A DNA stretch of 64,000 nucleotides from Paracoccus tegillarcae (GTDB taxonomy: Bacteria; Pseudomonadota; Alphaproteobacteria; Rhodobacterales; Rhodobacteraceae), in NCBI RefSeq assembly GCF_002847305.1, contig NZ_CP025408.1, positions 3,555,001-3,619,000 on the forward strand, given 5' to 3'. Below are positions 44,106-64,000 of the stretch, piece by piece (the stretch's first letter is position 1; the number at the start of each line of letters is the position of its first letter). Both the position numbers and the translations under genes were made by a program. Below the pieces are notes generated by a model. It was not told the origin of the DNA. It ran no database searches and saw only the letters and a program-made list of their open reading frames with translations.

Positions 44106-44316
44106 GGCAGCACCCGAACCGAACTGAATCATAGCCCAAGGTCGATGTCCCGAGGCGAACAAATTGTCTTTTCGGTCAATTGCATTGGTCCGAACGCCAA
44201 ATACCTTTGCTCGGTTAGCACTTTTGAAATAACCTTTGCTTCACAGTGCCATAGGCCAGAAACCTAACGAATCATCGACTGCACAATCTGCAGCTTGGTG
44301 GAAACAGCGAGTGCCA
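44106..44316. other. Intergenic region before the Hint-domain gene
   Basis: A 211-bp stretch, noticeably more AT-rich than the neighbours, that probably carries the promoter of the Hint gene. No clear terminator for glyS or small gene is visible. Confidence 0.4.
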
Positions 44317-45543
44317 ATGCCGACCTACACGCCCACCTATATCCATCTTGGCAACACTCCGACCCTGTTCAACGCCGATTACAGCACCGGCAGCGCAACC
44401 AGCCTGGCCGAGGCCAACGCATTCGCCAGCACCAATCTGACTTATGACGCCTCTGAGATGCAGGGGGTGCAGATCAGCGCCGACAGTACCAACGCCTTCA
44501 ATATCGAGCGCGGCTCTTCGCTGATCGACTATACGATCCAGCAATATGACGCGAATGGCGACCCGATCTCATCAACCGACGTCGAAAACGTGGTGTATGC
44601 TGGTCATATCGTCATGGATATCACGGTCGCGACGCAGCGCCTGTCAGCCGACGGAACGATGATCGAGGACGGCCCCGACGTCGATCTGCGCGCCGTCGTC
44701 ATCCAGATGTCCAACGGCGACATGTTTGTCCGCCCCTATTATCTGGACGTCCAGATCTGGGAGGACACGCTGAACGAATACGGCATTGCCGAGATCGCGC
44801 TGAACAACGTGCACACGTTTACCGATGGCACGGACCCGGACACGAATACGGATCGCGGCGTTGGCGGATTGAACGGCGAGGCGTCCTTTCCTCCGCGGTT
44901 TGTCGGCAAGCTGGACGAACCTGTGCCCTGCTTTGCCGCGGGAACACTGATCGACACGCCCACCGGCCCGGTACCCGTCGAAACGCTGGAAATCGGCTCG
45001 CTGGTGATGACACGCGATCATGGCGCACAGCCGGTGCACTGGATCGCGCGCAAACTGCTGGACGCCGCCGAACTGACCCGGCGCTCGCATTTGCACCCGA
45101 TCCGCATCAGCCCCGGCGCATTGGGCGATGGCACCCCGACCACCGATCTGGTCGTCTCGCCGCAGCACCGGGTGCTGGTTCGGTCGCCGATCGCACAGAG
45201 GATGTTTGGCACCGCAGAGGTTCTTGTCGCTGCCAAGGCGCTGGTTGGTGTCGATGGCGTTGCCGTCGCGGATGACATCAAGCAGGTCGAGTATGTGCAC
45301 TTCCTGCTGCAGCAGCACGAGGTGGTCATCGCCAACGGCGCGCTGACGGAATCGCTGTATCTGGGCCCCGAGGCGATCAAGGCCATCGGCCAGAAGGCAA
45401 TCGACGAATTGTTGTCCATCTTTCCTGAACTGAGCGATCAGCACGATGCGCCGACCCCGGCGCGGCCTCTGATCTCGGTCCATCGGGCGAAGGGGCTGGC
45501 GCGGCGCCATCAGAAGAACAGCAAGGGTCTGATCGGCCAGTAG
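44317..45543 (+). CDS. Hint (hedgehog/intein) domain-containing protein
   Basis: A 408-residue protein. The N-terminal about 200 residues are acidic, Thr/Asn-rich and calcium-binding-protein-like, without a signal peptide (MPTYTPTYIHLGNTPTLFNAD). From Cys205 the Hint domain begins: CFAAGTLIDTPTGPVPVETL, then MTRDHGAQPVHWI, VVSPQHRVLV and VEYVHFLLQQHEVVIANG. Alphaproteobacterial proteins of this form are thought to be type I secretion substrates with autoproteolytic potential. A C-terminal basic tail follows. The conserved first Cys is present; the downstream His/Asn needed for full splicing is not obvious. No secretion genes are nearby. Confidence 0.85.
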   Translation: MPTYTPTYIHLGNTPTLFNADYSTGSATSLAEANAFASTNLTYDASEMQGVQISADSTNAFNIERGSSLIDYTIQQYDANGDPISSTDVENVVYAGHIVMDITVATQRLSADGTMIEDGPDVDLRAVVIQMSNGDMFVRPYYLDVQIWEDTLNEYGIAEIALNNVHTFTDGTDPDTNTDRGVGGLNGEASFPPRFVGKLDEPVPCFAAGTLIDTPTGPVPVETLEIGSLVMTRDHGAQPVHWIARKLLDAAELTRRSHLHPIRISPGALGDGTPTTDLVVSPQHRVLVRSPIAQRMFGTAEVLVAAKALVGVDGVAVADDIKQVEYVHFLLQQHEVVIANGALTESLYLGPEAIKAIGQKAIDELLSIFPELSDQHDAPTPARPLISVHRAKGLARRHQKNSKGLIGQ

Positions 45544-47052: not shown

Positions 47053-47832
47053 TCAGACGATCCGGTCAACCATCATGTGCTTGATCTCTGCAATCGCCTT
47101 GGCCGGGTTCAGACCCTTGGGGCAGGTATTGGTGCAGTTCATGATCGTGTGGCAGCGATACAGCTTGAACGGGTCTTCCAACTCGTCCAGCCGTGCGCCG
47201 GTCGCCTCGTCGCGGGAATCGATGATCCAGCGATAGGCCGCCAACAGCGCGGCCGGCCCCAGATATTTGTCGCCATTCCACCAATAGGACGGGCAAGATG
47301 TCGAACAGGACGCGCACAAGATGCACTCATAAAGCCCGTCCAGCTTCTTGCGGTCCTCGATGGATTGCTTCCACTCGGTGCCCGGCTGCGGCGATTTGGT
47401 GATCAGGTAGGGATTGATGCTGGCATGCTGGGCGTAGAAATGCGTCAGGTCGGGGATCAGATCCTTGACCACTGGCATATGCGGCATGGGATAGATGGCG
47501 ATGTCGCCCTTGATCTCGTCGATGCCGTAGATGCAGGCCAGATGATTGCCGCCGCCAATGGTCATCGCGCAGGATCCGCAGATCCCCTCGCGGCAGGACC
47601 GGCGGAAGGTCAGCGTCGGGTCGATCTCGCTCTTGATCTTGATCAGCGCGTCCAGAACCATCGGCCCGCATTTATCCAGGTCGATCGTATAGGTGTCCAG
47701 ACGCGGGTTCTCGCCCGAATCCGGGTCCCAACGATAGATCTTGAAGACCTTGGTGTTGGTGGCCCCCTGCGGTGCCGGCCAGGTCTTGCCGACGGTGATC
47801 TTGCTGTTCTTTGGAAGGGTGAATTGGACCAT
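47053..47832 (-). CDS. sdhB: Succinate dehydrogenase iron-sulfur subunit
   Basis: Electron-transfer subunit of complex II, 259 residues. The 2Fe-2S cluster uses CREGICGSC (plus a further Cys), and the 4Fe-4S/3Fe-4S pair uses [16 protein letters not shown] and [17 protein letters not shown]. It is the last gene of the minus-strand operon and is separated from sdhA by three unrelated genes. The terminator at 46987 ends the unit. Confidence 0.98.
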
Positions 47833-49034: not shown

Positions 49035-49433
49035 TCAGGCCGTGTTCTGGGCAGCGGCAGCCGCACCGGCGATGCACTGCGTCGTTGCCGGCCGCGATAC
49101 GATGGCAGCCACGCTGTCAGCCGCACCCGAGACGCCCGCATTGGTCATCTGCGCGATGTCGACCAGTTCGGCCGTGGTCGCGTTGTTCATGATGCAGTCG
49201 GTCAGCGGTGCCACGTTCAGGCTGGGATAGCGCCGTTTGAGTTCTGCATTGACCGTCGTGCGTGCAATCGCGCGCGAGGCCGCATCCAGACCCGTCGGCG
49301 CAGGAGGCGCAGGTACGGCTGGTACGGCCGTGACGGGCGGCGGCGCCTGTCCCGGCATGGGGGTAATCGGCACACAGGCCGTTACCGCCAATGCGGCAAC
49401 GGCGGTGATGATCGGAAGACGAAACTGACGCAT
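49035..49433 (-). CDS. Small lipoprotein in the sdh operon (b)
   Basis: A 132-residue protein whose signal (PIITAVAALAVTACVP) ends in lipobox VTAC, followed by a Pro/Ala/Val linker (about 22-47) and a helical domain (ASRAIARTTVNAELKRRYPSL; TDCIMNNATTAELVDIAQM; SRPATTQCIAG) with two conserved-looking cysteines. Its ATG overlaps the sdhA stop as TGATG, so it is translated right behind SdhA. Likely outer-membrane or inner-membrane anchored in the periplasm. Function unknown. Confidence 0.82.
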   Translation of the reverse strand: MRQFRLPIITAVAALAVTACVPITPMPGQAPPPVTAVPAVPAPPAPTGLDAASRAIARTTVNAELKRRYPSLNVAPLTDCIMNNATTAELVDIAQMTNAGVSGAADSVAAIVSRPATTQCIAGAAAAAQNTA

Positions 49434-51235
49434 CAATAAACCCTTTTCTTAGGCGCAATCTTCTTTAAGTCTATCCCGCCATCCTCGGACGTCGTCAGAG
49501 GATCAATGTGGACGGGGCGATAAGTCAATTTAACCTTGTTTCCATCCACCCACGCAAGCGAATGCTTGCGCCAGTTGGCGTCATCCCGCTCAGGCCAATC
49601 CTCATGCGCATGGGCGCCGCGGCTTTCCTTGCGGGCCTCGGCGGCGATGATGGTGGCCATGGCATTGGCCATCAGGTTTTCCAGTTCCAGCGTCTCCATC
49701 AGGTCGCTGTTCCAGATCAGGCTGCGATCGGTCACCTTCAGATCACCCAGCTTGGCGGCGATGGCTTCCATCTTTTCGGCGCCCTCGGCCAGCGTCTTGT
49801 CGGTGCGGAACACAGCCGCGTCGGCCTGCATGGTGCGCTGCATCTCGTCGCGCAACTGGGCGGTCGGCACAGAGCCATCGGCATTCCGGATCCGGTCGAA
49901 CCGGGCCAGAATGGCATCGACCGCCTCCTGGTTGGTCCGGGGGATCTCGCTCTCGCGGTCAACCACTTCGCCGGCGCGGATCGCCGCGGCGCGGCCAAAC
50001 ACCACCAGGTCGATCAGACTGTTCGACCCCAGCCTGTTGGCGCCGTGGACCGAGGCGCAACCCGCCTCGCCGACAGCCATCAGGCCCGGAAAGACCTGAT
50101 CCGGCGTTTCTTCTGTGGGATCAAGAACTTCGCCCCAATAGTTCGTGGGAATGCCGCCCATGTTGTAATGCACGGTCGGCAGGATCGGGATCGGTTCCTT
50201 GGTCACATCGACGCCGGCAAAGATCTTGGCCGACTCGCTGATGCCGGGCAGCCGCTCATGCAGCGCCTCTGGCGGCAAATGCTGCAGGTTCAGGAACATG
50301 TGATCCTTGTCCTCACCCACACCGCGCCCTTCACGGATCTCGATGGTGATGCAGCGCGAGACCACATCGCGCGACGCCAGATCCTTATAGGTCGGCGCGT
50401 AACGCTCCATAAAGCGCTCGCCCTCGCTGTTGGTCAGATAGCCGCCCTCACCGCGCGCGCCCTCGGTGATCAGACATCCGCTGCCATAGATGCCGGTCGG
50501 GTGGAACTGCACGAACTCCATGTCCTGCAGGGGCAGGCCTGCGCGCGCCACCATGCCGCCGCCATCGCCGGTGCAGGTATGGGCGCTGGTGGCGCTGAAA
50601 TAGGCGCGGCCATAGCCGCCCGTGGCCAGCACGACCATCTTGGCATTGAACACATGCATGGTGCCGTCATCCAGCTTCCACGCCACCACGCCGGTGCATT
50701 TGCCATCGGTCATGATCAGGTCCAGCGCGAAATACTCGATAAAGAATTCCGCTTTTTCCTTGAGCGACTGACCATAAAGCGTGTGCAGGATCGCGTGGCC
50801 GGTACGGTCAGCCGCCGCGCAGGTGCGCTGCACCGGGGGGCCCTCGCCGAACTCGGTCGTGTGGCCGCCGAACGGGCGCTGATAGATCTTGCCCTCTTCG
50901 GTGCGCGAAAACGGCACGCCGTAATGTTCCAGTTCATAGACCGCCTTGGGGGCCTCGCGCGCCAGATATTCCATCGCATCGGTGTCGCCCAGCCAGTCGC
51001 TGCCCTTCACCGTGTCATACATATGCCACTGCCAGTGGTCCGGGCCCATATTCGACAGGCTGGCGGCAATCCCGCCCTGCGCTGCGACCGTATGGCTCCG
51101 CGTCGGGAACACCTTGGTGACACATGCCGTGCGCAGGCCCTGTTCGGCCATGCCCAGGGTTGCTCTCAGCCCGGCACCGCCGGCACCCACGACAACGACG
51201 TCATAGTCATGAGTTTGGATCTCGTATTCGCTCAT
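49433..51235 (-). CDS. sdhA: Succinate dehydrogenase flavoprotein subunit
   Basis: Catalytic subunit of complex II, 600 residues, oxidising succinate to fumarate. [17 protein letters not shown] (10-26) binds FAD; His48 in [11 protein letters not shown] is the covalent FAD attachment site. QFHPTG and [19 protein letters not shown] are further hallmarks. ATG 51235 gives the standard MSEYEI start; the 42-residue extension is spurious. It is the third gene of sdhCDA and overlaps the following lipoprotein gene. Confidence 0.98.
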
Positions 51236-51242
51236 GCTGTCC

Positions 51243-51620
51243 TCAGCTCGTGAATGCCATTTTGGCCAGCGCGAAAACCGCGGCGGCGATAACGCCGTAA
51301 CCAAAGATGACGGAAAAGATGATCGCGACCTTGCGCTCGGTATGTTGCAGGTAATCGTCAATGATTATCTGCATTCCCTTGATGAAATGCAGCATCCCCA
51401 CCACGATGAACAACGCGGTCACGATGGCAGGGTAAGGTCGCCCGAAATAGGCCAGAACGGCTTCGCGCGACAGCCCGATGGCCCCGCCGATCACCATCAG
51501 AAAGGCCGGCGTCAGAACCGCCAGCGCAACGGCGCTGATGGTCATGCGCCAATGATCGACGGTGCCGGTATGGCTGGCACCCAGCCCCTCGGCCTGCTTC
51601 AACGGCGAGATATAACGCAT
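51243..51620 (-). CDS. sdhD: Succinate dehydrogenase membrane anchor subunit
   Basis: A 125-residue cytochrome b-type anchor of complex II with three hydrophobic helices (about 27-50, 58-80, 98-120) and YxxHI-type haem region replaced by [16 protein letters not shown], containing the expected His and Tyr/Asp quinone-site residues. The N-terminal [19 protein letters not shown] is characteristic of alphaproteobacterial SdhD. It lies between sdhC and sdhA with short gaps. Confidence 0.94.
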
Positions 51621-51632
51621 CCTCAGCCCCCC

Positions 51633-52022
51633 TCAGACGAAAAACAGGATCAGCGACAGCAGGGTCAGAACGACCGAGCCCACGATGATCACCCAGCTGG
51701 ATTTCTGCGCGGCTTCGATCTCGATTCCGATGCCGGCATCATAGAACAGGTGCCGGATACCGGCCAACGCGTGATAGATCAGCGCCCAGGTCGCCCCCAA
51801 CATCACCAGAAAGCCGAACCAGCTGCGCAACAGGCCATCGGCGAAATCAAACGCATCCGGCCCGCTGACGGCGGCGACCAGCCACCAGGTGATCATCAGC
51901 AGCCCCACCACCAAGGCCACGCTGGTGACACGTGACAGGATAGAGGTCACCGCCGCGATGGGCAGCTTGTAGACCTGCAAATGGGGGGAAAGCGGGCGAT
52001 TGCCCCGGTTCACATCAGCCAT
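51633..52022 (-). CDS. sdhC: Succinate dehydrogenase cytochrome b556 subunit
   Basis: A 129-residue membrane subunit with RPLSPHLQVYKLPIAAVTSILSRVTSVAL (quinone-site Ser and Arg) and YHALAGIRHLFYDAG (haem-ligand His region), three helices in all. ATG 52022 follows GGAGGG. It is the first gene of the sdh operon; the double palindrome at 52177 lies about 170 bp upstream. Confidence 0.96.
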   Translation of the reverse strand: MADVNRGNRPLSPHLQVYKLPIAAVTSILSRVTSVALVVGLLMITWWLVAAVSGPDAFDFADGLLRSWFGFLVMLGATWALIYHALAGIRHLFYDAGIGIEIEAAQKSSWVIIVGSVVLTLLSLILFFV

Positions 52023-52176
52023 GCAAGTGGCCCTCCTGTCGTTCGCGTCCGGCGCGGTATGGCGGGCTTCAGGCTCGCCGCGCGGGCTGGCAATTGGCGT
52101 TGCTTCTGTCGCCCCTTTTGCCAACTGTCACGCGCATATACCAGTGCGCTGACGAAATTTTTGCAAATCCGATCCG

Positions 52177-52209
52177 TTGTGATCACTGAAAGCGGTCCCG
52201 TGATCACAA
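52177..52209. promoter_or_regulatory. Double palindrome operator upstream of sdhC
   Basis: TTGTGATCAC (52177-52186), 13 bp, then GTGATCACAA (52200-52209). The two GTGATCAC cores start 21 bp apart, two helical turns, and the whole element is itself an inverted repeat. The identical arrangement is upstream of sucC at 58537. It is probably bound by a dimeric or tetrameric regulator of TCA genes. The 52023-52325 region otherwise holds no gene. Confidence 0.8.
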
Positions 52210-52325
52210 AATCAGGCGGCACTCTGAAGGCAAATATCGGCGCTATGGCCCGGCCACCATTCCGCGCGCCGCAAATCGACCGTATCCGCGTATGGTCCGC
52301 GAAAAACGCGCTTTCGTGATCCACG

Positions 52326-52475
52326 CTAACCGTCTCGCCCCGGCTCAACGGGCAGCGTGTAACTCAGACCCTCGGGCCCCTCCTGCAGATCGTAGCCCAA
52401 GGCGGGCAGGAACGCCGCGTAGAACCGCTTGGCACCCGCAATATCGTCAGCGCCAACGGTGACATAGGCAATCAT
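52326..52475 (-). pseudogene. Truncated VOC (glyoxalase-fold) family gene
   Basis: An ATG-started 49-codon frame begins MIAYVTVGADDIAGAKRFYAAF, the standard N-terminus of a VOC/glyoxalase-like protein of about 120 residues. It ends shortly after, with GRDG and a stop. The central and second beta-alpha-beta-beta-beta modules with the metal ligands are missing, as if an internal deletion joined the N-terminus to the C-terminal tail. A ribosome site (GGAAAGGA) remains. Non-functional as an enzyme. Confidence 0.7.
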
Positions 52476-52577
52476 GCTGCGGGCTTCCTTTCCAGACATC
52501 CGGTCATGGCAACAAACACGCCGGACCGACCGCTCGGGCGGTCAGCTTTTGCGCCCATGACACCTGCGCGCAGCACC

Positions 52578-53612
52578 TTAAACCGGCATCAGCGCCCAGT
52601 AATCCAGATCCAGCAGCACCTCGGGCAGATATTTCCCGTCCTCGCCCTTCAGCGGGAATGCGGCGCTGTCGCCCTTGGTCGCGACCAGCCGCAGACGGAT
52701 CGCACCGACGCCCGGCGCATCGGTTTCGGCCTTGTCCAGCACCTCGGACCACGCCCGCACGGTATCGCCCGCAAAGCAGGGATTGGCATGGGCGCCCGCG
52801 TTCAGCGCCACGATCATCTGCGCATTGGCCAGTCCGTTGAATGACAGCGCGCGCGCCATGCTGATCACATGACCGCCGTAGATCAGACGCTTGCCATCCT
52901 CGCGATTGGTCGCATCGAAATGCACCTTCGCGGTGTTCTGCCACAGCCGCGTGGCCAGCATATGTTCGGCTTCTTCGATCGTCACGCCATCCACATGGTC
53001 GATCTTTTCGCCGATCTCATAATCTCCGATACGGTGTTTTTCACCCGCCAGTTCAAAGTCATAATCGGTAAAGTTGAGGCCATCTGGAATGATCAGCGCC
53101 TCGGCCGGCACCACCTTGGCCAGATCCGGCACCACCGTTTCGGGCGCGGGCGCATCGGCACCGCGTTTGCGCACCATCACCCAACGCACATATTCCAGAA
53201 CCGTCTCGTCCATCTGGTTCAACCCGCGCGTGCGGACATAGACGACGCCGGATTTGCCGTTGCTGTTCTGCTTCAGCCCGATCACCTCGGATTCCGATCG
53301 CAGCGTATCGCCCGGCATCACCGGCAACAGCCAGCGCCCTTCGCCGTAACCCAGATTGGCAATCGCGTTCAGGCTGACATCCGGAACCGTCTTGCCAAAA
53401 ACCACATGGAACGCGATCAGATCGTCCAGAGGGCTGCTTTCCAGCCCGCTATTCGCGGCGAATTCATCGCTGGAATAAACGGCGTGCCGGGCCGGATACA
53501 GCGCATGATACAGCGCCCGTTCGCCCTCGGCCACGGTGCGCGGCACCGCGTGGCGGATGACCTGCCCGATCTTGTAATCCTCGAAGAAACGGCCCGGATT
53601 GGTCTTGCTCAT
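52578..53612 (-). CDS. mch: Mesaconyl-CoA hydratase (beta-methylmalyl-CoA dehydratase)
   Basis: Ethylmalonyl-CoA pathway enzyme hydrating mesaconyl-CoA to (2R,3S)-beta-methylmalyl-CoA. 344 residues, two tandem MaoC-like hotdog domains (about 1-160 and 185-344), beginning SKTNPGRFFEDYKIGQVIRHAVPRT. The second half contains HVDGVTIEEAEHMLATRLWQNTAKVHFD and the substrate-binding GGHVISMARAL. The start overlaps the DUF1737 stop (ATGA). The nearby malyl-CoA thioesterase gene supports the assignment. Confidence 0.93.
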   Translation of the reverse strand: MSKTNPGRFFEDYKIGQVIRHAVPRTVAEGERALYHALYPARHAVYSSDEFAANSGLESSPLDDLIAFHVVFGKTVPDVSLNAIANLGYGEGRWLLPVMPGDTLRSESEVIGLKQNSNGKSGVVYVRTRGLNQMDETVLEYVRWVMVRKRGADAPAPETVVPDLAKVVPAEALIIPDGLNFTDYDFELAGEKHRIGDYEIGEKIDHVDGVTIEEAEHMLATRLWQNTAKVHFDATNREDGKRLIYGGHVISMARALSFNGLANAQMIVALNAGAHANPCFAGDTVRAWSEVLDKAETDAPGVGAIRLRLVATKGDSAAFPLKGEDGKYLPEVLLDLDYWALMPV

Positions 53613-53815
53613 TGCTGTCCCAGCTTCAGTTCAGGATGATAATCGACCGCCACTTCCTTGGTCACGGGCTGCGCCATGCGCATCACCCCCTTGACCGGAT
53701 CAAAGGCCATCGCTGCATTGCCATGCAGCGACCAGCCCTTTGACAGCGCCTCGCTGACGCGGTGGCAGAATTGCAAGGTGTCGTCCTCGGTGATGCAGCG
53801 GTAGAGGGTGGTCAT
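53609..53815 (-). CDS. DUF1737 domain protein
   Basis: A 68-residue protein with the DUF1737 pattern LYRCITEDDTLQFCHRVSEALSKGWSLHG and a short C-terminal arm. Such small proteins are common next to metabolic genes; function unknown. It sits between nnrU-like and mch genes with 1-4-nt spacing, clearly one operon. Confidence 0.88.
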   Translation of the reverse strand: MTTLYRCITEDDTLQFCHRVSEALSKGWSLHGNAAMAFDPVKGVMRMAQPVTKEVAVDYHPELKLGQQ

Positions 53816-53816
53816 G

Positions 53817-54365
53817 TCATGCTCCGAACGGGTTATAGCCCAGCCAGGTATGGATCAGCGCAACCACACCAAAGACCAGCAGCGTGCCGACAATCGCCAT
53901 GCCCTCTTTTCTGAACGGCGCCGGATGGGCCGGGGTCCAGTCCGGCTCGGCGCGGTTCAAGACAGCCATCTCCAGCAGCGCCCAGGCCAACAGCCCGCCA
54001 AACAGCGCCAGACTGGGCAGATCGCCATTCACCAGCAGATGCGCAAAGGCCCATAGCGCAAAGCCGGTCAATTGCGGATGCCGGATGTGGCGGGTGATCC
54101 GGGTTTTCATGCCAGCGGCGGCAAACAGATAAAAGCCCAGCAGAACCAGCAGGTTATTGATCCCCGTCAAGGCCGGGCTCGGACCCCACCAGACCGGGCC
54201 GTCTGCGACGCGGTAGCCCCAGACCATCAGGATGATCGACACGATCAGCGTGCCGGTCACGATCATCTTGCCCTGATCGCCAAATGCCGCGCGGTTCCCC
54301 GGCGCCGCCCGTTTCCAAAGATGCGCCGCCCACCACAGGATGACACCGAGAATCAGCAGGAACAT
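53817..54365 (-). CDS. NnrU family membrane protein
   Basis: A 182-residue protein with about five or six hydrophobic segments and the NnrU hallmark ITRHIRHPQLTGFALWAFAHLLVNGD, a His-rich loop also seen in related isoprenoid/sterol and thiol-methyltransferase membrane proteins. NnrU was first named next to nitric-oxide-reduction genes, but many copies lie elsewhere, as here within an ethylmalonyl-CoA gene group. Function unresolved. Confidence 0.88.
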   Translation of the reverse strand: MFLLILGVILWWAAHLWKRAAPGNRAAFGDQGKMIVTGTLIVSIILMVWGYRVADGPVWWGPSPALTGINNLLVLLGFYLFAAAGMKTRITRHIRHPQLTGFALWAFAHLLVNGDLPSLALFGGLLAWALLEMAVLNRAEPDWTPAHPAPFRKEGMAIVGTLLVFGVVALIHTWLGYNPFGA

Positions 54366-54407
54366 CTGGCTTCCTTTCGCTTGATGTTGATTGCGCGCAG
54401 GTTGTCA

Positions 54408-55247
54408 CTATCCCGACAGATCGGCAATCGCCCTTGCTTGATCCAGCAGCTTCTTGGCGGTTTCGACATGCAGGTTCTCGACGATCTTGCCGTCCAGCAC
54501 GGCCACGCCCTTGCCCTGGGCGGTTGCCGCCTCAAAGGCGTCGATCTGGCGGCGGGCAAGGTCGATCTCGGCCTCGGTCGGGCCAAAGCATTCGTTGGCG
54601 ATGGCCAATTGCGCCGGGTGGATCAGCGTCTTGCCGTCAAAACCCATATCCCGGCCCTGCTCGCATTCACCGCGCAGCCCGTCCTCGTCCCTGAAGGCGT
54701 TGAACACGCCGTCGACGATCACCTTGCCATGCGCCTTGGCAGCCAGCAGGCACAGCCCCAACCCGGTCTGCATCGGCAAACGGTCGGCGCGGGTGCGGCT
54801 GTTGATCTCTTTGGCCAGATCGTTGGTGCCCATCACCATGCCCTGCAAACGGGGATGAGCCGCGATTGCTGCGGCGTTCAGCATCCCGGCCGCGGTCTCC
54901 ATCATCGCCCAAAGCGGCGTGTCAGGCACCAGTGCTGCGGCGCGGTCCAGATCCTCGGGGCTGTTTACCTTGGGCACCAGCACCGCATCGGCACCGGTGG
55001 CAAAAGCCCGCGCATCATCGCTGCCCCATTCGGTATCCAGCCCGTTGATCCGCACGATCCGGGCGCGTCCGCCATAATCATTCTGCAGCGCGGCACCAAG
55101 CTGATCGCGGGCGGCGGCCTTTTCACTGGGCGCGACGGCGTCCTCCAGATCAAAGATGATGGCGTCGGCGGGCAGTCCCTGCGCCTTTTCCATCGCACGG
55201 GCATTGGCAGCCGGTATATAAAGAACAGAGCGATAGGGTCGTGCCAT
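54408..55247 (-). CDS. mcl2: (3S)-Malyl-CoA thioesterase (Mcl2-like), CitE/HpcH family
   Basis: A 279-residue TIM-barrel of the HpcH/CitE family. It begins MARPYRSVLYIPAANARAMEKA with FDLEDAVAP (metal-binding Glu/Asp), VRINGLDTEWG, MMETAAGM and MGTNDLAKE. In Rhodobacter sphaeroides the paralogue Mcl2 hydrolyses (3S)-malyl-CoA to malate while Mcl1 does the lyase reaction; co-localisation with mch fits Mcl2. ATG 55247 follows GAGGAAG. A lyase activity cannot be excluded from sequence alone. Confidence 0.85.
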   Translation of the reverse strand: MARPYRSVLYIPAANARAMEKAQGLPADAIIFDLEDAVAPSEKAAARDQLGAALQNDYGGRARIVRINGLDTEWGSDDARAFATGADAVLVPKVNSPEDLDRAAALVPDTPLWAMMETAAGMLNAAAIAAHPRLQGMVMGTNDLAKEINSRTRADRLPMQTGLGLCLLAAKAHGKVIVDGVFNAFRDEDGLRGECEQGRDMGFDGKTLIHPAQLAIANECFGPTEAEIDLARRQIDAFEAATAQGKGVAVLDGKIVENLHVETAKKLLDQARAIADLSG

Positions 55248-55328
55248 AACTTCCTCGCAGCAATAATATTGCGCGAAACTGCCTCTGCGCGACCGGAATG
55301 GCAAGTGCTTTTTCGCCGCAGCGCAGCG

Positions 55329-56090
55329 TCAGCCCGCCAGCAGCCCGGCGCCGCCCTGCCAGATCAGCCGGATCGAGACCAGCAGCAAGGCCCAGGTGAT
55401 GAACAGATAAAAGGCGCGCTGCGGCATCATCTTGACCAGCCGCACGCCCAGCCAGACGGCAAACAGCGCCACCGGCGTCAGGATCGCGGCAACACCCAGA
55501 TTGGCTGGCGACAACTGCCCCAATGCGGCATAGGGGATCAGTTTGACCGCGTTGACGACGGCAAAGAACACCGTGGTCGTGCCGGCATATATCAACGGCT
55601 CAAGCCGCAGCGGCTGGACATAGACCTGATAGGGGGCCGCGCCCGAATGGCTGACAAAGCTGGTATACCCGGCGATACCGCCCCAAAAGCTGCCTGCCCC
55701 CCAACGCGCAGGCCGCGGCGGTCCGTCCGGCGGGCGCCGCAGCAATGCGGTCAGCGCAAAGGTCAGCCCGATCAGCCCGACGATCAACTCGACCCCGGCC
55801 ACCGGCACGATGCTGGCGGTCAGCCAGCCAAAGACAATGCCGGCAATCGCGCCCGGCCACATCCGCGCCAGCACCCGCCAATTCGCGTGGCGCCAATAGG
55901 CGATCAGCCCGCCAATGTCGGAAACGATATAGACCGGCAGCAGCACCCCGGCGGCCTGCACCGGCGACATGACCAGCGACAGCAGCGGCACCGACAGCAC
56001 CGCAACCATGGACAATCCGCCCTTGGCCAGGCCCACGGCAATCGCGGCAATCACCGCCAGCGCCCAACCCGTTGCCGTCAGTTCAATCAT
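55329..56090 (-). CDS. TauE/SafE family sulfite exporter-like permease
   Basis: A 253-residue membrane protein with about eight hydrophobic segments; GLAKGGLSMVAVLSVPLLSLVMSPVQAAGVLLPVYIVSDI and SHSGAAPYQVYVQPLRL are family patterns. ATG 56090 is preferred to the longer reading. TauE/SafE proteins export sulfite or small organic acids; here the substrate is unknown, although neighbours in C4/C5-acid metabolism could hint at an organic acid. Confidence 0.86.
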   Translation of the reverse strand: MIELTATGWALAVIAAIAVGLAKGGLSMVAVLSVPLLSLVMSPVQAAGVLLPVYIVSDIGGLIAYWRHANWRVLARMWPGAIAGIVFGWLTASIVPVAGVELIVGLIGLTFALTALLRRPPDGPPRPARWGAGSFWGGIAGYTSFVSHSGAAPYQVYVQPLRLEPLIYAGTTTVFFAVVNAVKLIPYAALGQLSPANLGVAAILTPVALFAVWLGVRLVKMMPQRAFYLFITWALLLVSIRLIWQGGAGLLAG

Positions 56091-56145
56091 TCCAGCTTTG
56101 CACACTCTCAAGACGTCGATCCGCGCCAGTTGTGCCAAATGCGGC

Positions 56146-56159
56146 TGTTAGCGCAAGCC
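56146..56159. promoter_or_regulatory. LacI-type operator-like half palindrome upstream of mdh
   Basis: TGTTAGCGCAAGCC shares TGTTAGCG with the sequence upstream of the GH1 gene and TTAGCG with that upstream of eda. It is 79 bp before the mdh ATG. The right half is degenerate, so this is tentative. Confidence 0.3.
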
Positions 56160-56198
56160 CCCGTCGGCACTCTTGCGGTTTACGTTTCAAAGGACTAG

Positions 56199-57200
<1,002 letters not shown>

Positions 57201-57224
57201 GGCTGACCCAACTTGCCAATGCTG

Positions 57225-57256
57225 AAACGGCACGCCATCATCGGCGTGCCGTTTTT
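57225..57256 (+). terminator. Rho-independent terminator after mdh
   Basis: A perfect 12-bp stem (AAACGGCACGCC at 57225-57236 with GGCGTGCCGTTT at 57243-57254) and six-base loop, ending in TTTTT. Confidence 0.95.
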
Positions 57257-57272
57257 CGTTCAAGAGGTTGCC

Positions 57273-58472
57273 ATGTTTCCCCTTCGCCCGCTGATCGCCG
57301 CAGCGCTGCTGGCGGCGACACCCGCGCTGGCAGATGACACCAAAACCTCAGCGCTGATCGCGTCCGACGGGCTGACCGGCGCACGCAAGGCGTTACAGGC
57401 GCAACCGCCCGGCCCCGACCGCGACCTGGGCCTGGCGGCGGTCACCTTTCTCGCGGGGATCGAGGCCGGCTATCAGGCCCGCTGGCGCGTCGGGGCCACC
57501 AATCCCATGCTGCCCGTCCCGGTGATCGGCACGCCTTTGCCAGAGAACGGTTCACCCGAACCGATGACCGGCGACATGCTGTCGCAATTGCTGAGCGACC
57601 TCGCAGCCGCCATGGCCGCCACCCGCGAGGCCCTGCCAACCGATCCCGACCCCGATGCCGCGCTGGTCCTGCGCCTCGACGATGTGTGGCTCGATGTGAA
57701 CGGCGATGGGCAGCGCCTGCAAGGCGCCGAGGGGCTGTTGCGCCTGGCGGGCCTGCCCATGCCCGAACCCGGCAGGGACGTGATCCGCTTTGACGCCGCC
57801 GACGCGCATTGGCTGCGTGCCTATACGCATCTGATCGAAGGCACGGCGCGGGCCGCCCTGGCCTTTGACCCCGAAACGGCGCTGTCGCGGATGATCGCCT
57901 TGCGCACAGAGGTCGCGCGCCAGCAGGCCGAGGGCGCGCATCAACTGGCCCGCGAACCGATGATGCGCCAGCAGGCCGCGTTTATCGGCCCGTTCCTGGA
58001 TATCGCGGCTGTCACCCTGCAAACCCTGCGCAACCAGCCCGACCCCGAGGGGATTCAGGCCGCCGCCGATCACCTGACCCTGACCGTCGATGCCAATCGC
58101 GATTTCTGGGCTGCGGTCGCGACCGAAACCGACAATGACCGCGAATGGATTCCGAATGACAGCCAGCAGGCCGCCCTTGGATTTCAGCTGCCGCCCGGCA
58201 CCGGCGACGCCTGGCTGGATGTGCTGGACGAGGGCCGGATGGTCCTTTCCGGCGAACGGTTGATCCCGCATTGGCGGATGGAGCCGGGCTACGGCATCGA
58301 CCTGTCGAAATGGATCGCCGAGCCGACGCCGGTGGATTTTCTGGGCTGGGCGCAAGGCGCCGATGCCCTTGCCTTCACCGGTCCCGGCCTGACGATCGGC
58401 CGTGACGCATGGCGGCGCTTTGGCGATATGTTCGGCGGCCGCGCGGGGCTTTACATGGTGTTGTTCAACTGA
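57273..58472 (+). CDS. Exported protein of unknown function
   Basis: A 399-residue protein with a Sec signal peptide (FPLRPLIAAALLAATPALA, cleavage near residue 20). The mature part is Asp/Ala/Gly-rich and predicted mostly helical; features include GMDxGQRLQGAEGLLRLAGL-like segment VNGDGQRLQGAEGLL, two NDNDREW-type acidic patches and the tail GRDAWRRFGDMFGGRAGLYMVLFN. I do not recognise a family. ATG 57273 is preferred because the signal peptide starts there. It sits between the mdh terminator and the sucC regulatory region. Confidence 0.78.
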   Translation: MFPLRPLIAAALLAATPALADDTKTSALIASDGLTGARKALQAQPPGPDRDLGLAAVTFLAGIEAGYQARWRVGATNPMLPVPVIGTPLPENGSPEPMTGDMLSQLLSDLAAAMAATREALPTDPDPDAALVLRLDDVWLDVNGDGQRLQGAEGLLRLAGLPMPEPGRDVIRFDAADAHWLRAYTHLIEGTARAALAFDPETALSRMIALRTEVARQQAEGAHQLAREPMMRQQAAFIGPFLDIAAVTLQTLRNQPDPEGIQAAADHLTLTVDANRDFWAAVATETDNDREWIPNDSQQAALGFQLPPGTGDAWLDVLDEGRMVLSGERLIPHWRMEPGYGIDLSKWIAEPTPVDFLGWAQGADALAFTGPGLTIGRDAWRRFGDMFGGRAGLYMVLFN

Positions 58473-58536
58473 ACCCCGACCGGATTGCCGAGACGAATCG
58501 TCTTGTTATCGCCAACATCGGGCATGATCGGATGAT

Positions 58537-58569
58537 TTGTGATCACAGCCGAAAAGCTCGTGATCACAA
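58537..58569. promoter_or_regulatory. Double palindrome operator upstream of sucC
   Basis: TTGTGATCAC (58537-58546), 13 bp, then GTGATCACAA (58560-58569), about 125 bp before the sucC ATG. Core sequence, core spacing (21 bp) and outer TT/AA are the same as at 52177 upstream of sdhC; the 13-bp spacers differ, so the repeat is specific to the recognition half-sites. Confidence 0.8.
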
Positions 58570-58678: not shown

Positions 58679-59872
58679 ATGAACATTCACGAATATCAGG
58701 CCAAGGCGCTGTTGCGCCAATACGGCGCACCTGTCAGCGACGGGCGCATCGTGACACAGGCCGATCAGGCGAAATCTGCTGCGGGTGAGCTGGACGGCCC
58801 ACTCTGGGTGATCAAGGCTCAGATCCATGCCGGCGGACGCGGCAAGGGCAGCTTCAAGGAAAAAGAGGCTGGCGAAAAAGGCGGCGTGCGTCTGGCCAAA
58901 TCAGTCAGCGAAGCCGAGGAACTGACCCGTCAGATGCTGGGCCGCACCCTGGTCACGCATCAGACCGGCCCCGCCGGCAAGCAGGTCAACCGCATCTATA
59001 TCGAAGACGGCAGCGACATCGAACGCGAGCTGTATCTGGCCCTTCTGGTCGATCGCGGCACCTCGCGCGTCAGCTTTGTCGCCTCGACCGAGGGCGGCAT
59101 GGATATCGAAGAAGTCGCCGCGAACACGCCTGAAAAGATCGTCAGCTTCAGCGTCGATCCGGCCTCGGGCCTGTCGGATTTCCACGGCCGCCGCGTGGCC
59201 TTTGCGCTTGGCCTCGAGGGCCAGCAGGTCAAGCAATGCGTGGCGCTGATCCGCAATCTCTATCGCATGTTCATCGAAAAAGACATGGAGATGCTGGAAA
59301 TCAACCCGCTGATCGTGACCGACAAGGGCGATCTGAAATGCCTCGATGCCAAGATGGGCTTTGACAACAATGCCCTCTATCGCCAGTCCGACATCATGGC
59401 GCTGCGCGACGAGACCGAAGAAGATTCCAAGGAACTGGCGGCATCCAAGTTCGACCTGAACTACATCGCGCTGGACGGCGAAATCGGCTGCATGGTGAAC
59501 GGCGCCGGTCTGGCGATGGCCACCATGGACATCATCAAGCTTTATGGTGCCGAACCCGCCAACTTCCTCGACGTGGGCGGCGGCGCGACCAAGGACAAGG
59601 TCACCGAGGCGTTCAAGATCATCACCTCTGACCCGAACGTCAAAGGCATCCTGGTCAACATCTTCGGCGGCATCATGCGCTGCGACATCATCGCCGAGGG
59701 CATCGTTGCCGCGGTGAAAGAGGTCGGCCTGAAAGTGCCGCTGGTCGTGCGCCTCGAAGGCACCAATGTCGAAGAAGGCAAGCGCATCATCAACGAAAGC
59801 GACGTTGACGTGATCGCAGCCGACGACCTGAAGGACGGCGCCGAAAAGATCGTCAAAGCGGTCAAGGGGTGA
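58679..59872 (+). CDS. sucC: Succinyl-CoA synthetase beta subunit
   Basis: ADP-forming succinate-CoA ligase beta chain, 397 residues. [19 protein letters not shown] is the standard start; the ATP-grasp fold shows [17 protein letters not shown] and [10 protein letters not shown], and the C-terminal domain [21 protein letters not shown] with LDVGGGAT and [15 protein letters not shown]. It is the first gene after the regulatory element at 58537. Confidence 0.98.
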
Positions 59873-59930: not shown

Positions 59931-60815
59931 ATGGCCATTCTCGTAGACAAGAACACCAAAGTCATCACCCAGGGGATCACCGGGTCTCAGGGGACGTTCC
60001 ACACCGAACAGGCGATCGCCTACGGCACCAATATGGTCGGCGGCGTGACGCCCGGCAAAGGCGGCCAGACGCATCTGGACCTGCCCGTCTTCAACTCGGT
60101 CCACGAGGCCATGGAAAAGACCGGCGCGAACGCGACCGCCATCTATGTGCCGCCGCCCTTCGCAGCGGATTCGATCCTCGAGGCGATTGACGCGCAGATC
60201 CCGCTGATCGTCGCCATCACCGAGGGCATCCCGGTGCTGGACATGATGCGGGTGAAACGCGCGCTTGAGGGATCGACCTCCAAGCTGATCGGCCCCAACT
60301 GCCCCGGCGTCATGACCCCCGATGAATGCAAGATCGGCATCATGCCGGGCAGCATCTTCCGGCGCGGCAGCGTCGGCGTCGTCTCGCGCTCGGGCACTCT
60401 GACCTATGAGGCGGTCAAGCAGACCACCGATGTGGGTCTGGGCCAGTCCAGCGCCATCGGCATCGGCGGCGACCCGATCAAGGGGATGGAGCATATCGAC
60501 GTGCTGCAGATGTTCCTCGATGATGATGAAACGGAATCCATCATCATGATCGGCGAAATCGGTGGCAGCGCCGAGGAAGAGGCCGCCGAATTCCTGGCCG
60601 AGCAAAAGAAAAAGGGCAAATGGAAGCCCACCGCCGGCTTCATTGCAGGCCGCACCGCACCTCCGGGCCGCCGCATGGGCCACGCCGGCGCCATCGTCTC
60701 GGGCGGCAAGGGCGATGCCGAATCCAAGATCGAGGCGATGAAATCCGCCGGGATCGTGGTTGCCGAAAGCCCCGCCGGGCTGGGCGAGGCGGTGCTGAAA
60801 GCGATCGACAACTAG
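59931..60815 (+). CDS. sucD: Succinyl-CoA synthetase alpha subunit
   Basis: Alpha chain of the same ligase, 294 residues. [18 protein letters not shown] is the CoA-binding start; the phosphorylated histidine is His251 in [24 protein letters not shown] and [16 protein letters not shown] are further signatures. It follows sucC after 58 bp, with AGGAG before the ATG. Confidence 0.98.
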
Positions 60816-60877: not shown

Positions 60878-62044
60878 TTGACAATCGCAACCTCGCCTGA
60901 TCCTTCCCCGGATGGTCCGGGTGATGCAGCGTCGCTCAGTTGGTCGCTTTGCATTCCCACGCTGAACCGCATCGACGTCCTTGAACTGGCGCTTCGCTGT
61001 GCGCTGGCCCAGACACGAAAACCGGCCCAGGTGATCGTGATCGATGCAGGCGACCAGCCCAGGGCCAACCGCGATCGTCTCGCGCCGCTGTTTCACGGTC
61101 AGGGCATCAGTTTCATCCACGAACCGGCCAACAAACGCTCATCCGCGGTACAACGCAATCAGGCGCTGTCGCATGTCACGTCAGAGATCACCTTCTTCAC
61201 CGATGACGACACGCTGATGTTTCCCGATTGCGCACAAACGCTGATGGCGCGCTACGAGGCCGATCCCGACCAACGCATTGCCGCCATCGCTCTGGTCGAT
61301 GTCCCGCAGATCCCGCCGGCGGCACAAAAAGCCCTGACCGCGCCGGACGCGGCCCGGACGCCAGTGCTCGGCGTAAAAAAGGGCGGCACGGCAGAACAGC
61401 GCGACCGGCTGAACCGGATGAACCGCACATCCGGCCTGTGGCGCTGGTTCAGCCGCGAGGTGTTGATGTTTTCGGTGGAAAACATGTTTGTTCCCTATGA
61501 CCGCCACCGCAAACGGCCTGACGTCAGCGGCCTGCCCGCCGGCGCGCGCCCTGTCGAACAGATACGTCATCTGCCCGGCTATGGTATGTCGGTGCGCAGC
61601 GACATCGCCCGGCGCGAGTCTTTCAACCCGTATCTTCTGGCCTATTGCCCCTGCGAGGATCTGGATGCCAGCTATCGGTGGGGCCGGCACGGGCTGTGCG
61701 TCGTCGCCCCCGATGCGCGGGTCCGCCATCATGAAGTCCAAGCAAGCCGCATCGGCCGCCGCGAGGCAACCTCGCTTGGCATTTCGAACAATGCGCTCTT
61801 TATCCACACCAACAGCGACTCGCCGATCCGGCACCGGCTTGCCTTTGCCATCTATGTCGCAAGGCGGCTTTTGGGCGAGACGCTGAAGGACGCGGCCACG
61901 CGGCGCTTCACGTTTCCGCAAGCGCGCGGTGTGCTGGACGCGATCCCCAGTGCCATCGGCATCTTCCGCCGCCCCCTGTCCGAGGCGCAGGATTGGTACG
62001 ATGATCGGCAAAAGCGGCTTCTTTCCCGCCCGAGGCCGTCATGA
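60878..62044 (+). CDS. Family 2 glycosyltransferase embedded in the suc operon
   Basis: A 388-residue GT-A fold transferase. SWSLCIPTLNRIDVLELAL (about 21-39) and QRNQALSHVTSEITFFTDDDTLMFPD, whose DDD is the metal/nucleotide-sugar site, mark the GT2 domain; YCPCEDLDASYRWGRHG resembles the acceptor-side ED motif. The start is TTG 60878 behind GGAG; no ATG is nearby. No membrane anchor is obvious. It separates sucD from lipoprotein genes and sucA and has no glycan gene neighbours; its product is unknown. Confidence 0.85.
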   Translation: MTIATSPDPSPDGPGDAASLSWSLCIPTLNRIDVLELALRCALAQTRKPAQVIVIDAGDQPRANRDRLAPLFHGQGISFIHEPANKRSSAVQRNQALSHVTSEITFFTDDDTLMFPDCAQTLMARYEADPDQRIAAIALVDVPQIPPAAQKALTAPDAARTPVLGVKKGGTAEQRDRLNRMNRTSGLWRWFSREVLMFSVENMFVPYDRHRKRPDVSGLPAGARPVEQIRHLPGYGMSVRSDIARRESFNPYLLAYCPCEDLDASYRWGRHGLCVVAPDARVRHHEVQASRIGRREATSLGISNNALFIHTNSDSPIRHRLAFAIYVARRLLGETLKDAATRRFTFPQARGVLDAIPSAIGIFRRPLSEAQDWYDDRQKRLLSRPRPS

Positions 62045-62160
62045 CCCGGCGGCACCGCCCACCCTCCATGACCGGTTTCGGACAGGGCAGCCAATGTTTG
62101 ACATCCCGTCTGGCTAGTCGGACATTGGCCGGATGCAATGATGAGCTTGCCGGGGATGAG

Positions 62161-62553
62161 ATGAGCCTTCACAACATGCCGGCGCAATCGCAACCTCCAG
62201 CCTTTGCGCCGGGGTCACGCTCGATGATGTCACTGTCTTTCGCCGCGCTGATCACGCTGACCGCCTGCGGCGGCAAGAGCACGGACCTGATCCTGCCCGG
62301 CGGCGTGCCGGCTATGACCGATTTGCATCAGGCCAGCACCCTGCCCCCTGACTCGGTGCGCACGGTTGCGCGGCGCGATTATGGCTGGCGGCTGATCTAC
62401 CACCCCGCCCGCGCACCGGCCAATGCAGAACAGGGCGCGGCACGTGCGCTCTGTGGGCTGGAAAGCCGCCGCCCTGCGCGAATAGAGAACATCCCCCGCA
62501 TCGATGCCTATGCCGATCCCGGCGCTCAGATCATCGATATTTATTGTGCATAA
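62161..62553 (+). CDS. Small lipoprotein in the suc operon (paralogue 1)
   Basis: A lipoprotein of about 130 residues (start ATG 62161 behind GGGGATGAG; ATG 62224 would give a shorter, more typical signal). The hydrophobic segment MSLSFAALITLTACGG ends in lipobox LTAC. The mature protein finishes with a domain of pattern LIYHPARAP...AARALCG (about 30 residues) PGAQIIDIYCA, with two cysteines 31 residues apart. The same layout is in the lipoprotein at 62778. Function unknown; it is between the GT2 gene and sucA. Confidence 0.8.
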   Translation: MSLHNMPAQSQPPAFAPGSRSMMSLSFAALITLTACGGKSTDLILPGGVPAMTDLHQASTLPPDSVRTVARRDYGWRLIYHPARAPANAEQGAARALCGLESRRPARIENIPRIDAYADPGAQIIDIYCA

Positions 62554-62565
62554 GGGGCCCGCGGC

Positions 62566-62781
62566 ATGAGATCGAAACGTCACATCGTCAAAGCCTCCGC
62601 GCCGCAACCAAGCGCAGGATCGCCGGCGGCTGAGCGCGGTCCAGGCCTATCTGCACGGACGGCTTTGCCGCTCGGCCTGGCACTTTTGCTGATTTGCAGC
62701 GTTGTGCTGGCAACGCTGATCGCATTTTCACATGTCATGGGCTTGCAGTTGCTGCCCAGCAAAAAAGAGGTCCACCCGTGA
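62566..62781 (+). CDS. Small single-span membrane protein in the suc operon
   Basis: A 71-residue protein with a basic, Pro/Ala-rich N-terminus, one hydrophobic helix (about 34-58, LPLGLALLLICSVVLATLIAF) and a short KKEVHP tail. It starts 12 bp after the preceding lipoprotein gene and its stop overlaps the next gene's GTG (GTGA). Coupling to two lipoproteins suggests that the three products act together, but no function is known. Confidence 0.75.
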   Translation: MRSKRHIVKASAPQPSAGSPAAERGPGLSARTALPLGLALLLICSVVLATLIAFSHVMGLQLLPSKKEVHP

Positions 62782-63248
62782 TCCAGAGAACCAGACCCAT
62801 TGCTGCGCTTGGCCTTATCGCGCTGACCCTGGCCGCCTGTGCCCAGCCTATCGCGAACCCGGCCGAGCTGGGACCGAACGCACCCGTGCGCTCGGCTGTC
62901 CCGGAATCGCCCTATCGCGCGGCTACCTCGCGCATGCGGCCCGCGCAGCCGGCACCCGTCATCGCCGCGCCGATCCCGGTCGCACCTGCCGTACCGACCG
63001 GCCCCAGCGGCCCGCTGGACGCGCGGACCGGGCTGCATCAATCGGCGCTGGTCTCGGTTTCCGGCAGTGCCGACAGCCAGTTCATCGTGCTGTTCCGCCC
63101 CGGCCAAACCGACAGCGATAGTATCGACACGGCACCGGGCAAGCTGTGTGGCGCGACCGGCGTGGCAAGCTCCCGGACAAATTCACCTGGATCGGGCAGC
63201 GCCATGCCCGGCGTGCAGACCATGATCGTCAAATGTGGGGCCGCGTGA
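62778..63248 (+). CDS. Small lipoprotein in the suc operon (paralogue 2)
   Basis: A 156-residue lipoprotein from GTG 62778. RPIAALGLIALTLAACAQ carries lipobox LAAC at about 17-20; a Pro/Ala/Val-rich linker spans about 40-85, probably crossing the cell wall. The C-terminal domain reads IVLFRPGQTD...APGKLCG (about 28 residues) PGVQTMIVKCGAA. It aligns in spacing and motif with the domain in the 62161 lipoprotein, two cysteines 29 residues apart. It lies 48 bp before sucA. Confidence 0.8.
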   Translation: MIQRTRPIAALGLIALTLAACAQPIANPAELGPNAPVRSAVPESPYRAATSRMRPAQPAPVIAAPIPVAPAVPTGPSGPLDARTGLHQSALVSVSGSADSQFIVLFRPGQTDSDSIDTAPGKLCGATGVASSRTNSPGSGSAMPGVQTMIVKCGAA

Positions 63249-63296: not shown

Positions 63297-64000
63297 ATGA
63301 ACGACCAACCCAACAACGCCGATTTCCACGATTCATCGTTCCTGCAGGGCCATAACGCAGCCTATATGGAACAGCTTTACGGCCAGTGGGCGCGCGACCC
63401 GCAGGCGGTCGATCAGGCCTGGGCCGATTATTTCAGCGGTCTGGGCGACTCCGAGGCCGATGTCAGCCGCGAGGCCGCGGGCGCCAGCTGGGCGCGTGCC
63501 GACTGGCCGCCCGCCCCCGTGGACGAGCGCACATCGGCGCTGACCGGCGAATGGCCGCAGGCCAGCGATGCCGAGGCCAGGGCGGCGATGAAGAAGATTG
63601 CCGGCAAGGCCGAGGAAAAGGGGGTGGGCCTCAGCGATGCGCAGATGCGTCAGGCGGTGCTGGACAGCATTCGCGCGCTGATGCTGATCCGCGCCTTCCG
63701 GATCCGGGGCCACCTGCATGCCCATCTGGACCCGCTTGGCCTGCGCACCTATCCCGACCACGGCGAATTGAAGCCGCAGACCTACGGGTTCGAGGAAAAG
63801 GATCTGGATCGCCCGATCTTTATCGACAATGTGCTGGGTCTCGAGATCGCGACGATCCGCCAGATCGTGCAGCTGATGAAACGCACCTATTGCGGCACCT
63901 TTGCGCTGCAATACATGCATATCTCGAACCCCGAAGAGGCCGCATGGCTGAAAGAACGGATCGAGGGTTACGGCAAGGAAATCGAGTTCACCCAGAACGG
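63297..64000 (+). CDS. sucA: 2-Oxoglutarate dehydrogenase E1 component (partial)
   Basis: First 234 codons of the thiamine-diphosphate-dependent E1 subunit; the gene runs off the right edge. ATG 63297 follows AAAGGA. The start HDSSFLQGHNAAYMEQLYGQWARDPQAVD is the E2-binding N-terminal helix region; RIRGHLHAHLDPLGL and YCGTFALQYMHISNPEEAAWLKERIE are the conserved E1 segments. The E2 (sucB) and lpd genes are expected just beyond the window. Confidence 0.97.
   Translation, partial: MNDQPNNADFHDSSFLQGHNAAYMEQLYGQWARDPQAVDQAWADYFSGLGDSEADVSREAAGASWARADWPPAPVDERTSALTGEWPQASDAEARAAMKKIAGKAEEKGVGLSDAQMRQAVLDSIRALMLIRAFRIRGHLHAHLDPLGLRTYPDHGELKPQTYGFEEKDLDRPIFIDNVLGLEIATIRQIVQLMKRTYCGTFALQYMHISNPEEAAWLKERIEGYGKEIEFTQN

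Follow-up and report, generated by a model that had tools for sequence, protein, structure and literature searches.

Paired palindromes upstream of the sdh and suc operons of Paracoccus tegillarcae as predicted operators of the GntR-family regulator AkgR

Results

Genes and paired palindromes of the window

The window analyzed here, a 64,000-nucleotide stretch of Paracoccus tegillarcae DNA (contig NZ_CP025408.1, positions 3,555,001 to 3,619,000), contains the sdh genes on the minus strand and the suc genes on the plus strand, each set preceded by a pair of palindromes.

47053..47832, minus strand: sdhB, iron-sulfur subunit (above the cut-off of NCBIfam PRK05950)
49433..51235, minus strand: sdhA (assigned from its translation, by resemblance; start picked by eye)
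51243..51620, minus strand: sdhD, membrane anchor (above the cut-off of NCBIfam TIGR02968)
51633..52022, minus strand: sdhC, succinate dehydrogenase cytochrome b556 subunit (above the cut-off of NCBIfam TIGR02970; start codon picked by eye)
52177..52209, minus strand: predicted paired operator of the sdh operon, with GTGATCAC palindromes at 52179-52186 and 52200-52207 (21 bp center to center; sdhC start codon 155 bp downstream)
58537..58569, plus strand: predicted paired operator of the suc operon, with GTGATCAC palindromes at 58539-58546 and 58560-58567 (21 bp center to center)
58679..59872, plus strand: sucC, succinyl-CoA synthetase beta (above the cut-off of NCBIfam PRK00696)
59931..60815, plus strand: sucD (from its translation, by eye)
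63297..63998, plus strand: sucA, 2-oxoglutarate dehydrogenase E1 (from its translation, by eye; continues past the window end)

The mdh gene also scored above its NCBIfam cut-off. The 33-bp element found at both sdhC and sucC reads TTGTGATCAC-N13-GTGATCACAA, with identical ends and differing 13-bp spacers. A first-pass annotation of this DNA had described an identical double palindrome at the two positions and had seen no further pair of this form; its coordinates, the ends, the center distance, and the difference between the spacers were all confirmed, and a scan of the 3.95-Mb genome that allowed up to three mismatches recovered only these two exact copies, both at promoters, so the element is not frequent at random positions. 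The same scan returned one extra place, at 3 mismatches; one place was also matched by the reversed control pattern. When the window was dinucleotide-shuffled 100 times, no shuffle gave two matches, either to the exact gapped pattern or with up to three mismatches allowed, and in the latter case the maximum per shuffle was 1. The 33-bp element is a predicted operator. A fifth GTGATCAC of the window, at 6450-6457, is a lone palindrome within an ORF.

Conservation of the pair in the family

The family sample comprised 149 genomes, of which 9 had no sucC match and were left out. For 139 of the resulting 140 genomes, stretches of up to ∼14 kb upstream of sucC were acquired, and the window itself was used for the last one; the sdhC counts rest on 104 loci, since sdhC was absent from the stretch, often because of a contig end, in the other 36. 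All genomes were counted alike, and kinship was ignored. Of the 140 genomes, 126 carried the exact pair in the 600 bp preceding sucC (spacer 13 in 114, spacer 12 in 12), and of the 104 sdhC loci, 92 carried it in the 600 bp preceding sdhC (spacer 13 in 82, spacer 12 in 10); thus, rather than being absent from the orthologous promoters of relatives, the element is conserved in most of the family genomes sampled. Within the 400 bp before sucC, adjacent palindromes were only 20 bp (12 cases) or 21 bp (115 cases) apart. The looser pattern GTGATCAC-N4..34-GTGATCAC occurred in 133 of the 149 genomes, compared to 0 of 149 for its reversed control, and a hand count of the table gave exactly two such places in 92 genomes. 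Inspection of 34 family pair loci placed all 31 whose spacer was 12 or 13 at sdh genes or sucC and the three with spacers of 10, 19, and 23 elsewhere.

The 14 sucC loci without an exact pair included a one-mismatch pair (G040) and a three-mismatch pair (G017), and the other 12 showed 6-7 mismatches, compared with 4-7 for 60 shuffled sequences. Near matches among the 12 such sdhC loci were found with one mismatch in L212, L232, and L235 and with two in L179, and one-mismatch pairs were read by eye from the sequences of L191 and L210. A single palindrome was present at L126 and L228, and no palindrome was found upstream of sdhC at L192, L208, L247, and L251. In P. yeei, P. indicus, and C. ovatus, sucC and sdhC each had an exact N13 pair. 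Of the two sdhC-like genes of P. denitrificans, one had an exact pair and the other none, and its sucC had a one-mismatch pair; R. capsulatus SP108 had a pair at sucC and none at sdhC. In a class-level draw, the pair was present in 4 of 4 family members and in 19 of 285 other genomes; outside the family the spacings were mostly irregular, and the reversed control matched in two genomes as well.

Spacing, helical phase, and AT tracts of the promoters

A two-box model of the 92 sdhC promoters yielded GTGACA-N16-TA-rich, with a log-likelihood of 428 versus 193 for the reversed sequence. GTGAC started 58-62 bp past the operator in 71 of these promoters and was absent within 95 bp of the operator in 12. 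For 9 of the other 21, GTGAC was located at 37, 48, 48, 49, 49, 50, 71, 72, and 81, shifts of approximately whole helical turns; G141 has a second GTGAC at 25, and the host genome is one of the nine.

52127..52131, minus strand: GTGAC, candidate -35 core of sdhC (48 bp past the operator, about one helical turn closer than is usual)

The -10 position that matches this GTGAC in the host is ACAGAA, a poor one by eye. When the 13 off-cluster GTGAC positions between 30 and 90 were tested for helical phase, p was 0.0008 (0.0004 for distinct positions), in a test that was picked after the data had been seen and with position 52 and two at 87 that do not fit. The corresponding -35/-10 model for sucC was clearly above its reversed control in 0 of 5 starts and below it in 3, and positional clustering was all that was seen there: CGTTT at +45/46 in 34 of 126 promoters and TATA[CG] at +72/73 with 21 hits.

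The AT content of the operator-promoter stretch (+5 to +58) was periodic, with peak periods of 9.75 bp for sucC (n = 126) and 10.25 bp for sdhC (n = 92). AT power at 10.25 bp was 0.73 and 0.89, respectively, compared to maxima of 0.035 and 0.055 when the sequences were independently rotated; the per-sequence values were 1.00 and 1.19, compared to 0.24-0.25 (largest 0.32) under shuffling. The upstream flank was above controls but far lower (0.046 in each set; 0.34 and 0.42 per sequence). In a scan along the region, AT periodicity was highest in the operator-promoter stretch, with lesser peaks of 0.67 and 0.79 downstream, and a control inside mdh peaked at 0.70. Phased AT tracts of this kind may bend the DNA.

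A candidate regulator gene and the palindrome at its start

The exact 12-bp form TTGTGATCACAA occurs once in the whole genome, at C1:69900-69911, and its core ends 9 bp ahead of what is presumed to be the start codon of a candidate regulator gene.

G000:C1:69230-69892, minus strand: akgR, candidate GntR-family regulator (∼0.2 Mb from the window if the chromosome is circular)

The start used for akgR is a chosen one, because a longer in-frame start exists upstream of the palindrome. Its 221-residue product carries GntR (PF00392, 47.8 bits) and FCD (PF07729, 69.4 bits) domains, both above the curated cut-offs. Of the 20 GntR-domain matches in the genome, 19 scored above the cut-off; akgR is one of the 20, and it alone among the GntR genes has the exact TTGTGATCACAA at the gene start. 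By profile, the closest solved relative of AkgR is McbR of E. coli (PDB 4p9f, E 9e-25); the predicted structure of P. denitrificans AkgR was of middling confidence (pLDDT 73, pTM 0.44). The best 80 of 582 named akgR relatives include those of many Paracoccus species, P. denitrificans DSM 413, Rhodobacter capsulatus, and Cereibacter ovatus.

The single palindrome upstream of akgR follows a TTGAC element and, by eye, lies on the expected -10 region just ahead of the start, a site that would be well placed for blocking transcription. Among orthologues outside the named set, the exact palindrome was present at akgR in 14 of the 30 closest, and GTGATCAC was found within 150 bp upstream in 55 of 80 named orthologues (the best 80 of 582 relatives). 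By hand count among these same 80, it was present at 37 of 38 loci titled Paracoccus; elsewhere it was frequently absent, and the predicted autoregulation is thus not universal.

At E 1e-40, an akgR match was present in 134 of 149 family genomes, that of G054 being only 43% identical. With this paralogue-only genome scored as lacking akgR, the 140 genomes with sucC divided into 123 with both akgR and the exact pair, 2 with akgR only, 3 with the pair only, and 12 with neither (Fisher p 5e-13, kinship ignored). With G054 scored as positive and all 149 genomes included, the corresponding numbers were 130, 4, 3, and 12 (p 5e-12). The exact pair occurred without akgR in G114, G096, and G019, and akgR occurred without the exact pair in G040, which has the one-mismatch pair, and in G136, in which the sucC match is only 59% identical. 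G017 has no akgR, yet possesses the three-mismatch pair noted above. A broad regulon is not supported: in 61 genomes, the fully symmetric TTTGTGATCACAAA turned up in five, a single time in each (judged by position or letters, upstream of akgR in G032 and G056 and upstream of sdhC in G052; also in G005 and G059), with a strict pattern that would miss weaker targets.

Discussion

AkgR, which we take to be RSP_0981, is reported to activate TCA genes directly. The available passages of PMC4344238 describe RSP_0981 as a GntR regulator of R. sphaeroides that is predicted to control sucCD, sdh, and sucAB-lpd, and those of PMC6365646 give GTGATCAC among the sites of the activator AkgR. The host DNA resembles this regulon, as far as these passages describe it, in its GntR regulator, motif, and sdh and suc targets: the GTGATCAC palindrome lies in the promoters, sdh and sucCD are the linked genes, and a GntR regulator gene that co-occurs with the sites is present in the genome. 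For sucAB-lpd, translations place sucA 2.5 kb beyond sucD with three ORFs in between. The species differs, and the passages on the R. sphaeroides regulon mention neither the paired layout nor the helical phase or AT phasing; likewise, no statement of the paired layout was seen in the passages searched in the open-licence literature. On the basis of family, motif, and targets, the host candidate is probably the RSP_0981 orthologue; the nearest named relative in the comparison is from Cereibacter ovatus. Given the conservation of the pair, its co-occurrence with akgR, the palindrome at akgR itself, and the published targets and motif, the paired site is very probably AkgR's, an assignment that we make with good confidence from sequence comparison, and no unknown regulator is therefore required. 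The first-pass annotation had proposed one regulator co-controlling sdh and suc, and conservation, co-occurrence, and the predicted RSP_0981 targets support that proposal well. It had also mentioned AkgR without claiming the site for it; that link now stands at the strength just given, and its description of AkgR as LysR-type was wrong, the candidate carrying GntR and FCD domains and the papers calling AkgR/RSP_0981 GntR-like. A LysR regulator was rejected on the same ground.

Among other regulators, CceR (RSP_1663) of R. sphaeroides is also predicted to control sdh, but the passages on it describe a LacI family protein with the motif GTT-N6-8-AAC, both unlike AkgR. PS417_07240 of the Pseudomonas simiae deoxyribonate cluster is GntR-like, 32% identical to AkgR, and a proposed GTGATCAC binder in the text available; there, a single palindrome precedes a catabolic cluster, whereas pairs precede TCA genes here. 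McbR, the solved relative closest to AkgR by profile, has different targets.

We consider it probable, from the sequence and its comparisons, that the elements are AkgR operators from which two dimers would activate sdh and suc in a class I-like manner, with akgR repressing itself. One AkgR dimer would occupy each GTGATCAC palindrome, the symmetric core of which fits one GntR dimer. Because the centers are 20 or 21 bp apart, two dimers could occupy one side of the helix at a distance of two turns, upstream of both the sdh and the suc promoter, which makes cooperative binding likely. The dimers may contact RNA polymerase from afar and so activate both operons, assisted by a DNA curve in which AT tracts recur in phase with the helix; contact through bent DNA would be the simplest account, since the sdhC -35 is ∼60 bp away and the phase is mostly kept. 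The single palindrome over the akgR start would allow AkgR to repress its own synthesis. AkgR as the binder in this species, its cooperativity, the curvature, the activation, and the autorepression are all read from sequence in this model. More tentatively, and as a possibility that falls somewhat short of probable, AkgR could be a phase-locked remote activator acting through ∼50 bp of curved DNA, with the operator-promoter distance evolving by whole turns; one palindrome would then repress akgR, two in tandem would activate TCA genes, and the number and place of operators would set the sign of control across the family.

Several other readings of the palindromes were weighed against AkgR activation. 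AkgR might bind these sites and repress sdh and suc by blocking or looping until a metabolite releases it; the akgR palindrome is located where a repressor would sit, and GntR proteins are commonly repressors. We regard this as unlikely, because PMC6365646 names AkgR a transcriptional activator in the passages available and the pair lies upstream of the sdhC -35, not on top of it, with its helical phase conserved. Less likely still is a different binder, either the paralogue ∼40% identical to AkgR or another GntR protein, with the akgR co-occurrence due to kinship alone. A second match of ∼40% identity is present in many family genomes, the genome has its 20 GntR-domain matches, and GTGATCAC is apparently used by other GntR proteins too, but akgR is the only GntR gene with the exact TTGTGATCACAA at its start, and the paralogue is not needed because the host has one match only at E 1e-40.

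The two remaining readings are barely credible. CRP/FNR sites have the consensus TGTGA-N6-TCACA, and TGTGA and TCACA half-sites are indeed visible here, but they overlap inside GTGATCAC and leave no 6-bp gap, for which reason this geometry was rejected. The cores are also short and self-complementary, as a chance match or dispersed repeat might be; against this, both exact copies lie in promoters, the pair keeps its position in most of the family genomes sampled even as its spacers vary, and the shuffles, the genome scan, and the reversed control in 149 genomes led us to reject it.

The regulator, targets, and motif are thus already published for R. sphaeroides, and the window adds a new species member to a control circuit that is conserved and largely known. 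The paired layout is the point of interest: the pair geometry, helical phase, and AT phasing are apparently new, although they may be partly described in earlier AkgR work. Control of sdh and suc in Paracoccus-like bacteria can now be tied, very probably, to a known GntR regulator. The passages available from PMC11323563 place succinate dehydrogenase and 2-oxoglutarate dehydrogenase in the CceR regulon of R. sphaeroides but not in that of P. denitrificans, and P. denitrificans DSM 413 has akgR; akgR and the pairs in that strain could represent the "different regulatory mechanisms" of TCA enzymes that those passages leave open. Since the geometry is conserved and natural promoters exist with shifts of one or two helical turns, the idea that a GntR protein activates from a distance is open to direct testing.

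Sequences accompanying the operator in the family

An additional sequence, GCGCCAAAAAACCGCGC, was present upstream of sdhC in 16 of the 104 family loci where this gene was found (for example, the fetched stretches L132, L133, and L143), and a search of the fetched stretches beyond these 16 upstream regions revealed it nowhere else. Its start lay 23 to 25 bp downstream of the sdhC operator in 14 loci and 35 or 36 bp downstream in two (genomes G141 and G106), and in these same two the -35 core of the sdhC promoter was shifted by one turn. A third exact palindrome, farther upstream than the pair and mostly 57 or about 100 to 240 bp from it, occurred in 20 of the 104 sdhC upstream regions. Arrays of three or four palindromes were also observed before sucC in L315, L327, and L331 (near 19.9-20.3 kb) and in L224, with internal spacings of 21/21, 21/21/26, or 21/26 bp. 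Both akgR and the pair were missing from the sucC-bearing genomes G004, G008, G014, G029, G048, G059, G083, G101, G102, and G109.

Other reading frames in the window

60878-63248, three ORFs separating sucD from sucA, one glycosyltransferase-like by eye
44236-45543, 435-aa ORF containing a CFAAGTLIDTPTG stretch, resembling a Hint domain on visual inspection

Because three ORFs intervene between sucD and sucA, the latter may need a separate promoter of its own.

The palindrome outside the family

Pairs of GTGATCAC were detected in two loci outside the Rhodobacteraceae, L119 (695-3032) and L100 (992-1020), with spacers of 16 and 13, respectively, and adjoined GntR-type genes together with catabolic-looking genes. 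This arrangement gives the impression that regulators of a related kind employ this palindrome outside the host's family as well.
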